DNA from: an uncultured Verrucomicrobiales bacterium
GTDB lineage: Bacteria; Verrucomicrobiota; Verrucomicrobiia; Verrucomicrobiales; Akkermansiaceae
Length of the DNA: 60,550 bases
Reading direction: 5' to 3'
Assembly (NCBI GenBank): GCA_937969495.1
Contig: CALBVY010000016.1
Location: forward strand, 1-60,550
Part shown: in pieces, positions 3,927-20,568 of the stretch
Layout: each line of letters begins with the position of its first letter
How positions within the stretch are numbered: position 1 is the stretch's first letter
Notes under the pieces: generated by a model
What the model saw: the letters and a program-made list of their open reading frames with translations, nothing else
Told to the model about the DNA's origin: nothing
Database searches by the model: none
Position numbers and translations under genes: made by a program

Positions 3927-5048
3927 TCACCTCCATTCTGGATCTTGATCCTTCTCTAAATCGATGCGGTCTGCAAGATTACGAGCCTTAATGCGATGAT
4001 CTCGCTTAGCCCTGCGCACCGAAAGCTGGCGGAGCTTTTTTTGTCGTCTCTCAAGTTCTTCAATTTCTTCATCCAACTTAAGATAGCTCTCATAGCGTCC
4101 GGCATCCAGCTCACCAGACTCTACTGCCTCACGGATAGCACAGCCTTTATCGTTACCGTGTTTACAATCATGAAATTTACACTGAGCTGCTAGCTCCTCT
4201 ACATCTAGAAAACTTTCCCTCAGCGTCTGCTCATCCGTCCACATCTGGATCTCGCGCATACCAGGGTTATCGATCAAGATCCCACCTTCATCTAGCAGGA
4301 TCAATTCACGCGCGGTGGTGGTATGCCTACCCTTACCTGTTAGCTCATTAACATCACTCGTCCACTGGAAATCCTCGCCTAACAATTGATTAACTAACGT
4401 TGATTTCCCAACACCACTGGACCCTACTAGAGTTACTGAAATACCTGGTTCGAGGTATTTTCTAAGCACTTCGAGGCCTTCATTCTCTGCCGCAGAGGTA
4501 ATATAGACATCTACATCTTCGCTAAGATCTCGAATCATCTCCGCCGCTTCTTGATTCTGCTCATCAGTAAAAAGGTCAGACTTATTAACTAAGACTACTG
4601 CTTTTGAGCCACTACGCCGAATCAGAGTAAAATAGCGCTCCATACGCCGAGGATTAAAATCTGAACCCGCATCTGTTACCACCACGACTACGGTGACATT
4701 AGCAGCGATGACTTGCTCCATCGTACTTTTCCCAGGAAGCTTCCTAGAAAAACAAGTTTGCCGCGGAAGGCGAGCACGGATCATATTTTCTCCATCTTCA
4801 TCCTTAGCGAGCTCAAGAGCTATCCAGTCCCCCACTGCTGGCAGCTCCGCATCTGTAGCTGCCTCATGGTAAACCTTCCCTGACATCAGCACCTCGCGTT
4901 CACAGACATCTCCTTCTTGATCGACAAAAAGGGCTCCGTAGGTGATTTTATTATCGCGAATTAGGCGTGCTGGGACGCAGTTACCTAAGGAAAGACCATC
5001 AAAGGCTTTCTGAAATTTCTTATTCCATCCGAGATCGTTAAGAGTCAC
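3927..5048 (-). CDS. rsgA: Ribosome small subunit-dependent GTPase A
   Basis: RsgA is a late 30S ribosome assembly GTPase. The 373-residue protein shows the circularly permuted GTPase order that defines the family: G4 (VNKSD), then G1 (GSSGVGKST), then G3 (DNPGMRE). An N-terminal OB-fold region precedes this, and a C-terminal zinc-binding region has the pattern CKFHDCKHGNDKGC. The C-terminal tail is rich in arginine and lysine, as expected for an RNA-binding protein. The start is GTG. It is the last gene of a minus-strand run that begins with gcvT; the gap to the DUF5069 gene upstream is 47 bases. It is probably co-transcribed, although no functional link to glycine cleavage is obvious. Confidence 0.95.
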   Translation of the reverse strand: MTLNDLGWNKKFQKAFDGLSLGNCVPARLIRDNKITYGALFVDQEGDVCEREVLMSGKVYHEAATDAELPAVGDWIALELAKDEDGENMIRARLPRQTCFSRKLPGKSTMEQVIAANVTVVVVVTDAGSDFNPRRMERYFTLIRRSGSKAVVLVNKSDLFTDEQNQEAAEMIRDLSEDVDVYITSAAENEGLEVLRKYLEPGISVTLVGSSGVGKSTLVNQLLGEDFQWTSDVNELTGKGRHTTTARELILLDEGGILIDNPGMREIQMWTDEQTLRESFLDVEELAAQCKFHDCKHGNDKGCAIREAVESGELDAGRYESYLKLDEEIEELERRQKKLRQLSVRRAKRDHRIKARNLADRIDLEKDQDPEWR

Positions 5049-17855: not shown

Positions 17856-17930
17856 GGGTTCATAGTACAATGGATAGTATAGCGGCCTCCGAAGCCGTAG
17901 ATCCAGGTTCGACTCCTGGTGGACCTACCA
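17856..17930 (+). tRNA. tRNA-Arg (CCG anticodon)
   Basis: The 75-base sequence folds into a full cloverleaf. The acceptor stem pairs GGGTTCA with TGGACCT (first pair G-U). The anticodon stem GCGGC/GCCGT encloses the loop CTCCGAA, which gives anticodon CCG at 17889-17891 for Arg CGG codons. The T arm is CCAGG-TTCGACT-CCTGG. The 3' CCA is encoded. A TTGACT box at 17772-17777 may belong to its promoter, but no good -10 box fits. No integrated element or repeated 3' end was seen next to it. Confidence 0.93.
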
Positions 17931-18075: not shown

Positions 18076-19425
18076 CTATTCAGCCGCATGCTTCATCTTA
18101 TTTTCAAAAGCGTGCCAGCACTCGATAAAACCACTCGCAAAATCTTGAGAGCGCGCCTGAATCCATGCCCGAATTTCATCCATAGCAAACCACTCACCTG
18201 ATTCGACTTCACTACAAGGAAAGCGCACAGCTCCATCGTGACGCGCTAGATAGAGCCTTACATGCTCCCAGCCAGTCTGTTCAGAGGGAGCTATCTGCGC
18301 AACCTCCTGCACCTCAGCATCGCGAATACCCATCTCCTCTTCCAGCTCCCTAACGGCCGTCGATTCATATCTCTCTCCTGCATTAAGGTGCCCCGCTGCG
18401 CTGGAATCCCACACACCAGGGTGGACATCCTTCAGTCGTGATCTCTTCTGCAAAAAGAGCTCTTTACGTTTATTAAATACAAAAATGTGAACTGCACGGT
18501 GAATGAGCCCCTCACGGTGCACCAGTTCACGCGTCTCCTGCCGGAGAACCTCGTCATTTTCATCCACGACATCAAAGATCTCACTACCTTTTTGTGGTAT
18601 ATTTTTCAGCGGATGGTCATCGTAAATCCTCGTCAGCTCCACCCATTGCTCCAGAGTAATCTCTTCTGCACGAGCCGTGACCGGCACATTGATTGCTGCA
18701 GCGGCCACTTCCCAGTCTGCTGTATCCGGGAGTTGTTTTTTAATCTGTTTACGCCGTTGGGAAAAACCACGCCGGATTATTTCATCAAAAAGTCGTGCGT
18801 CATAGACAGGTAAATCATCGGCACGTGGCTCACAGACCATCACCGTGGAATCAATCAGCGGTCTGGGGAAAAATGCCTCTGGCGGAATAGTCTTCACCGG
18901 TTTGCTAACCCACTCGCTTTGCATCCGTAGCGACAACACTCCGTATTCCTTAGTCCGTGGCTTACCGATGATACGATCAATAAATTCCTTCTGCAGCATC
19001 AACACCGCTTTACACACCGGAGAGGGTCTTTTCATAAAGTTACGCATAATCGCCCCACCTGCGGAGTAGGGTAAATTACCTAACAACTTCACAGGTTGGT
19101 ATTTATAGAGCTGGCGAACATCAAAGCGCGCACCATCGTGATGATACACTTCTACATGCTCACAGTCTGCGAACTTCTCTGTTAAACCCTCAGCCAAGCG
19201 TGCATCAAACTCTACCAGAATCACTCTATCTGCCACCCCGATCACATGCTCGGTAAGAGCTCCCGTACCCGGCCCTACCTCCACCACCGTATCACCGGGC
19301 TGGATATCTAACTGATCAACAATCCAGCGTGCAACATTGGCATCAATGAGGAAATTTTGACCTAACTTCTTAGAGGGAATCACCCCCATGGAATCCAAAC
19401 GTGCTTTGATTTCAGTCTGATTCAT
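18076..19425 (-). CDS. rsmA: Fusion of 16S rRNA dimethyladenosine transferase RsmA (KsgA) and a Nudix hydrolase
   Basis: Residues 1 to about 272 are a complete RsmA/KsgA, which dimethylates two adjacent adenines near the 3' end of 16S rRNA. It has KKLGQNFL, the AdoMet loop VEVGPGTG (48-55), the catalytic NLPY (117-120) and a normal C-terminal helical domain. Residues about 280-449 form a full Nudix hydrolase of the YfcD/isopentenyl-diphosphate-isomerase-like type, beginning FDVVDENDEV. It has a perfect Nudix box at 345-367 (G-x5-E-x7-RELEEEMGI). The reading frame is uninterrupted and there is no internal methionine at the junction, so this is a true fusion rather than two overlapping genes. 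It overlaps the Bcp gene by ATGA. The Nudix substrate is unknown. Confidence 0.92.
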   Translation of the reverse strand: MNQTEIKARLDSMGVIPSKKLGQNFLIDANVARWIVDQLDIQPGDTVVEVGPGTGALTEHVIGVADRVILVEFDARLAEGLTEKFADCEHVEVYHHDGARFDVRQLYKYQPVKLLGNLPYSAGGAIMRNFMKRPSPVCKAVLMLQKEFIDRIIGKPRTKEYGVLSLRMQSEWVSKPVKTIPPEAFFPRPLIDSTVMVCEPRADDLPVYDARLFDEIIRRGFSQRRKQIKKQLPDTADWEVAAAAINVPVTARAEEITLEQWVELTRIYDDHPLKNIPQKGSEIFDVVDENDEVLRQETRELVHREGLIHRAVHIFVFNKRKELFLQKRSRLKDVHPGVWDSSAAGHLNAGERYESTAVRELEEEMGIRDAEVQEVAQIAPSEQTGWEHVRLYLARHDGAVRFPCSEVESGEWFAMDEIRAWIQARSQDFASGFIECWHAFENKMKHAAE

Positions 19426-19898
19426 CAGCTTTTTAAAACTTCTAATAGCTGCTCAAGATGCTTACCCGGCTTTACCTTTTCTAATACCGCCTGAATCTTG
19501 CCATTCACGCCAATCACAAAGCTACTGCGTTCAATCCCCATATATTTTTTCCCAAACATGCTTTTCTCCACCCACACGCCATAGGCTGCTACGATTTTTT
19601 TATCCGTATCTGCTAGCAGCGGGTATGGAAGGTTCTTTTTTTCGATAAATTTACGGTGACTCTTTTCATCATCGATACTAACACCGAAAACGTGGGCAAC
19701 CCCCTCTAACTCATCCCAATGATCACGGATGGCGCAGGCCTGGATCGTACACCCAGGGGTGTTATCCTTGGGGTAAAATACGAGCACAACAGGGCGCTCA
19801 CTCAGATCAGATAGAGAGAGCTCTGCCCCTTCAGGATAAGATCCCCCCACCACCTTAGCAGTGAAGTCCGGAGCTATCTCGCCAACTTTAGGTTTCAT
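19425..19898 (-). CDS. bcp: Thioredoxin-dependent peroxiredoxin, Bcp/PrxQ type
   Basis: This enzyme reduces hydrogen peroxide and organic hydroperoxides. I place the start at 19898 (157 residues, MKPKVGEIAPDF); the longer frame to 19943 would overlap the divergent pgsA start. The peroxidatic cysteine is Cys50 in DNTPGCT and the resolving cysteine is Cys55, the five-residue spacing of atypical 2-Cys PrxQ enzymes. FYPKDNTPG and GVSIDDEKSHRKF are typical. Its stop overlaps the start of the RsmA-Nudix gene (ATGA), so the two are translationally coupled. Only 34 bases separate it from pgsA. Confidence 0.93.
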   Translation of the reverse strand: MKPKVGEIAPDFTAKVVGGSYPEGAELSLSDLSERPVVLVFYPKDNTPGCTIQACAIRDHWDELEGVAHVFGVSIDDEKSHRKFIEKKNLPYPLLADTDKKIVAAYGVWVEKSMFGKKYMGIERSSFVIGVNGKIQAVLEKVKPGKHLEQLLEVLKS

Positions 19899-19932
19899 GG
19901 CCTTAGCTCTATCCAGCTGGAGGTTAATTGCA

Positions 19933-20568
19933 ATGGCACACATAAAAAAACTTCAAACTCGATACGAAATACCACAAGCTCCCAGCGTGACCCTCGCCTC
20001 CAAGATAACGCTCTTCAGGCTCCTCCTCGCACCTGTCTTTGCGGTTATGGCGGTGTATTACGGCGAAACAGTAAAAGCTGGAACCCCGGATGAAAGACTC
20101 CGCTGGTGGGCTGTGGGGATATTTATTTTTGCCTCCGCTAGTGATGCCTTGGATGGCTATATGGCACGGCGTTATAACCAACGCTCGAAGTTCGGCGCGT
20201 TCATGGATCCCTTTGCTGACAAGACCCTCCTACTCACCGGCATTGTATTTCTGACCTTTATCCCATGGGGTGACGGTTGGCATATTCCTATCTGGTTCAC
20301 CGCACTGATGATCATTCGTGACATCATTATCATTGGCGGCATCTGGATTCTGCACTATTTCAATGCCCACGTCCCCATCCGCCCTCACTGGACAGGAAAA
20401 GTCTGCACCGTCACACAAATGATCCTGCTCGGTTGGGTGATGCTCAAAATCATTCCCCTCTCACCTATCTACCCCACTATCGCCGCTACCATTTTCACCA
20501 TCTGGTCAGGAATCATATACTTCCGCCAAGGACTCCACATGCTTCACGAACACCATCATGAAGTGTAA
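19933..20568 (+). CDS. pgsA: CDP-alcohol phosphatidyltransferase, PgsA-like (phosphatidylglycerophosphate synthase)
   Basis: This membrane enzyme joins CDP-diacylglycerol to glycerol-3-phosphate. The catalytic signature D-G-x2-A-R-x8-G-x3-D-x3-D is intact (DGYMAR ... GAFMDPFAD). Several membrane helices are visible across 211 residues. I chose the ATG at 19933 because TGGAGG lies nine bases before it (19918-19923) and the protein then starts MAHIKKLQTRYEIPQAPSVT. The longer frame from 19861 would run through the bcp start. Another CDP-alcohol substrate is possible, but the TLASKITLFRLLLAP start is PgsA-like. It leads a plus-strand run with der. Confidence 0.88.
   Translation: MAHIKKLQTRYEIPQAPSVTLASKITLFRLLLAPVFAVMAVYYGETVKAGTPDERLRWWAVGIFIFASASDALDGYMARRYNQRSKFGAFMDPFADKTLLLTGIVFLTFIPWGDGWHIPIWFTALMIIRDIIIIGGIWILHYFNAHVPIRPHWTGKVCTVTQMILLGWVMLKIIPLSPIYPTIAATIFTIWSGIIYFRQGLHMLHEHHHEV

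Follow-up and report, generated by a model that had tools for sequence, protein, structure and literature searches.

Few ribosome assembly factors are as conserved as RsmA, which normally has a single function. In the window, a 60,550-nucleotide stretch of contig CALBVY010000016.1 from an uncultured Verrucomicrobiales bacterium, a gene for RsmA appears to run on without a stop into a Nudix hydrolase. This raises the question of whether the gene truly encodes one protein with two enzyme domains, and if so, how such a protein arose and what the second domain contributes.

One reading frame encodes RsmA and a Nudix domain

A preliminary description of this DNA, made from the sequence alone, had claimed that a full-length RsmA and a full Nudix domain share one frame (Table 1). 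Profile searches bear this out. Pfam assigned RrnaAD to residues 19-268 (E 4e-54) and NUDIX to residues 309-422 (E 2.4e-18). The N-terminal part scored 213 bits against the curated ksgA profile TIGR00755 (cut-off 171), and it is thus a bona fide RsmA. The genome from which the window derives and each of 19 relatives contain one RsmA match above this cut-off. In sequence searches against solved structures the first half matched KsgA, and when the predicted model of the fusion was searched by fold, KsgA structures came first, among them KsgA on the 30S subunit. This half therefore resembles RsmA/KsgA (TIGR00755, PF00398): the domain is full-length and exceeds the curated cut-off, no motif is missing and the fold matches. 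The E. coli protein, at 273 aa, ends after the C-terminal helical domain, whereas the fusion adds a C-terminal Nudix enzyme. The box of that enzyme, GHLNAGERYESTAVRELEEEMGI, fits GX5EX7REUXEEXGU perfectly, in agreement with the preliminary description.

Table 1 Features of the fusion locus in the window.
Feature	Position	Strand	Remarks
RsmA-Nudix fusion gene	18076..19425	(-)	449 aa; ATG start; one uninterrupted frame
RsmA/KsgA 16S rRNA dimethyltransferase domain, residues 19-268	18622..19371	(-)	GQNFL, EVGPG, NLPY and F..RRK motifs
Linker, residues 269-281, without Met	18583..18621	(-)	
YfcD/IDI-like Nudix domain, residues 282-440	18106..18582	(-)	
Nudix box GX5EX7REUXEEXGU, residues 345-367	18325..18393	(-)	read from sequence
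PrxQ/BCP-type peroxiredoxin	19425..19943	(-)	stop overlaps fusion ATG by one base (TGATG)

Two artefacts could mimic a fusion: a hidden second start and a frame error. The only start-like codons near the join are GTG (codons 262, 287 and 302), none of which, when checked by eye, is preceded by a clear Shine-Dalgarno sequence, so a hidden start is as unlikely as had been proposed. A sequencing or assembly frame error near position 18600, raised as a concern in the preliminary description, is ruled out because 57 of the order's 58 genomes have the same frame open, with identities of 46-84%. Most fusions have 10 residues between the HMM-defined domains.

Both halves are also conserved where it matters for catalysis. 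Their catalytic residues, including the SAM-binding and NLPY motifs, vary little or not at all across 24 aligned sequences with identities down to 36%; NLPY is present in all 112 fused proteins and F..RRK in 111. Within the genus, pooled pN/pS was 0.17 for RsmA, 0.16 for the linker, 0.22 for the Nudix domain and 0.79 for the last nine residues, values that are ratios of proportions and not of rates because synonymous sites are saturated. On this sequence evidence, both domains are under purifying selection. An AF2 model of the whole two-domain chain (mean pLDDT 94.1, pTM 0.90) suggests that the two domains pack in a defined way.

The fusion is widespread in one class of Verrucomicrobiota

The preliminary description had proposed a search for the same architecture in other Verrucomicrobiota, and we found it widely. 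The full-length fusion occurs in 57 of the 58 genomes of the order; in the remaining genome (G032) just a fragment is present, at the edge of a contig. By a count of the match table, a class-wide sample of 237 genomes contains 97 full fusions, 49 in the 49 genomes of the order itself and 48 in the 188 outside it. The window genome lies in the neighbourhood of Akkermansiaceae, MAGs of which are its nearest named records; beyond that family, the fusion has been seen under the names Verrucomicrobium sp., Prosthecobacter, Chthoniobacterales and Terrimicrobiaceae, among others. The fusion is absent from the 129 genomes of the phylum's other classes, where the best E-value was 1e-51, compared with 1e-74 or better for fusions. 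Likewise, none of about 50 KsgA loci from other phyla in the genome collection has a Nudix neighbour of this type.

Two single-contig genomes of 0.9 Mb retain the complete fusion (G073:C1:365001-366314 and G082:C1:553255-554568). They are probably endosymbionts, and in size they resemble the endosymbiont Xiphinematobacter. In the first of them (locus L065), an rsmH-like MraW gene lies downstream of the fusion.

One apparent loss of the fusion, in a Terrimicrobiaceae MAG contig (L131), was set aside because its GC content falls abruptly, from ~0.55 to ~0.25, at about position 4800, immediately past the RsmA core. Unrelated coding sequence follows, and the contig is probably chimeric.

We found no description of a KsgA/RsmA-Nudix fusion in an open-access literature library. 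Sequence databases must already contain this architecture without comment, and the novelty thus lies in the architecture and its evolutionary history, not in the chemistry.

The fusion arose from an adjacent gene pair at least twice

In other families of the class, ksgA and nudix lie side by side as two genes, arranged as in the fusion. They overlap by 4-11 nt at L073, L079, L132, L135, L137 and L200 (by 4 nt at L073, L079, L137 and L200) and are separated by short spacers at L072, L074, L086, L087, L090, L091, L192 and L193. The four pairs with 4-nt overlaps come from sister families, as do the spaced pairs L072, L086, L087, L090 and L091. In G231, G122, G113, G176, G172, G061 and G098 the two genes are unlinked. 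The overlapping separate pairs in sister lineages are operon-like precursors, and they support the earlier suggestion that fusion may co-regulate the two activities. At L073, L087, L137, L192 and L205, an ArgD/GABA-type aminotransferase gene lies directly upstream of the unfused pair, in several cases overlapping.

A tree of concatenated KsgA and Nudix sequences (62 rows) recovered one main fused clade of 32 rows (100/99), which is beyond doubt. A second fusion, L068, is nested among adjacent pairs (100/99), and its sister is itself an adjacent pair (99/83). Trees built from KsgA alone and from Nudix alone share the main features, and in both of them L068 falls among those adjacent pairs. The concatenated tree requires four changes, forced by well-supported branches. 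The fused state of two more lineages, f7 and L067 (the latter sister to the adjacent pair L213), reflects either additional fusions or a single older fusion with later reversions. L067 and L068 are known from one genome each, so an assembly indel is possible for either. Together, the trees and gene order show that, at least twice, a ksgA-nudix pair that already existed, often with overlapping genes, merged into the fusion.

Other neighbours of the fusion are not conserved

The preliminary description had also noted that the fusion gene is coupled to a peroxiredoxin gene, and had read this as a hint at oxidative damage. The one-base overlap is real in the window, and a peroxiredoxin gene lies directly upstream in the congeners L002, L003 and L005-L007. 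It is missing in L004 and L008-L013 of the same genus, however, and is rare upstream of fusions outside the genus. The arrangement is thus not conserved, the hint at oxidative damage finds no support, and we rejected a peroxiredoxin partnership as a general feature. Genes downstream of the fusions vary, and no conserved third neighbour was present around the fusions tested. In the window, a tRNA-Arg gene (anticodon CCG; 17856-17930, + strand) lies on the opposite strand just past the 3' end of the fusion gene.

The Nudix half is probably a hydrolase related to YfcD

The best curated profile for the C-terminal half was YfcD (NF011922), at 85 bits against a cut-off of 152, followed by IDI (TIGR02150), at 65.6 bits against a cut-off of 105.8. 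The Nudix half is therefore related to YfcD without being an equivalog. Sequence matches to solved structures gave the same relatives: YfcD (2FKB), DR_0079 and IDI. The window protein is 31% identical to E. coli YfcD (PDB 2FKB) over 140 residues without gaps; it differs in reading WDSSAAGH where YfcD has LDATAGGV and in being joined to RsmA. For YfcD, the closest relative in E. coli, the substrate is given as undetermined (PMC5389931), and YfcD was inactive on protein-linked ADP-ribose (PMC4680915). The next-best solved Nudix relative, DR_0079 of Deinococcus (PDB 1Q27/2O5F), is free-standing, in contrast to the fused domain here, and a title cited in PMC5389931 credits it with a preference for CDP/CTP-type substrates.

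Type I IDI belongs to the same Nudix branch (24% identity to the E. coli enzyme). The fusion has the hydrolase box that IDI lacks, and the position of the catalytic cysteine of IDI (VCGH) is Ala/Ser in the window protein; no relative scanned has an xCGH motif. We rejected a type I IPP isomerase on the grounds of this replacement. With the cysteine replaced, isomerase activity is unlikely, and the YfcD/IDI-like half is probably a hydrolase, for which IPP is a possible substrate. The canonical Nudix box is present in 106 of the 112 fused proteins and in nearly all unfused relatives. In the fused proteins L054 and L106 the first Glu of the box is changed to C or R. Hydrolysis may be lost or changed in the few fused proteins that deviate (6 of 112, these two included). 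Besides the fusion, the window genome carries three other Nudix genes.

Discussion

What might a Nudix enzyme do on RsmA? We favour, with a probability of roughly 0.6, a bifunctional housekeeping protein in which an RsmA half and an active YfcD/IDI-like Nudix half are held at 1:1 expression by the fusion. Family membership and intact motifs suggest that the RsmA half would dimethylate A1518/A1519 of 16S rRNA late in 30S assembly. The Nudix half would be an active Mg-dependent pyrophosphohydrolase acting on a small nucleotide or a prenyl diphosphate. The merger of the ksgA-nudix pair into one gene (at least twice, by trees and gene order) would bring a likely benefit by keeping the two halves at a constant 1:1 ratio, expressed at the pace that growth sets for making ribosomes. 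The two domains are predicted to be packed in a defined way, and channelling between the active sites would not be needed. A point against this reading is that co-regulation alone leaves unexplained why the pair fused repeatedly instead of staying an operon.

That repetition, with exactly this pair both fused and linked again and again, together with the defined packing predicted, lends some appeal to a reading that we nonetheless consider unlikely: that the substrate of the Nudix domain is linked to the ribosome or to RNA, or is a nucleotide alarmone (for example of the Ap4A type), and is processed at the site of 30S maturation, the fusion thereby tying maturation to nucleotide status. The E. 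coli rsmA gene is co-transcribed with the diadenosine tetraphosphatase gene apaH in the operon surA-pdxA-rsmA-apaG-apaH (PMC1084345). This is a loose parallel, alike in that rsmA is co-transcribed with a nucleotide hydrolase, but ApaH belongs to a different, non-Nudix family and is unfused. ApaH gave no match in the window genome and none over the family cut-off in 20 relatives, although such absence is common, with only 1 of 14 control genomes over the cut-off. The relatives YfcD and DR_0079, moreover, are known or presumed to use free nucleotides, and other families of the class keep separate, unlinked copies. A particular form of this idea, in which sensing or removal of a nucleotide by the Nudix half at the maturing 30S subunit serves as an undescribed checkpoint between RsmA-dependent maturation and nucleotide state in Verrucomicrobia, seems to us rather doubtful; it is suggested by the repeated fusion of the same pair, the short and near-constant linker and the confidently predicted packing.

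A hydrolase of IPP/DMAPP related to type I IDI, tying the level of isoprenoid precursors to ribosome production, is in our judgement quite improbable. IDI profiles rank next after YfcD, and the IDI cysteine is replaced while the hydrolase box is intact. The plant enzyme AtNudx3, by analogy, dephosphorylates IPP (PMC6779861), and rsmA lies near ispE in Gram-positives (PMC1084345). The YfcD profile is nevertheless closer than IDI (85 versus 66 bits). Clearance of oxidised nucleotides by the Nudix domain, in partnership with the peroxiredoxin encoded upstream, would fit the gene overlap in the window genome, but we give this idea very little credence, since that link is missing in several congeners and in most other fusions. 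We would be just as surprised if the Nudix domain were without catalytic activity and instead sensed nucleotides to gate RsmA: a confidently predicted two-domain arrangement is consistent with it, but the catalytic box is intact in nearly all fused proteins and unfused relatives.

The bifunctional housekeeping protein that we favour is a new architecture of known enzymes, and that architecture is real, conserved and repeatedly evolved. As a clade-wide fusion that evolved more than once, it serves as a 'Rosetta stone' that ties RsmA to an orphan Nudix subgroup, and it offers a handle for finding the substrate of the YfcD-like enzymes. A possible link of 30S maturation to small-molecule diphosphates could be tested in cultivable genera such as Akkermansia and Prosthecobacter.
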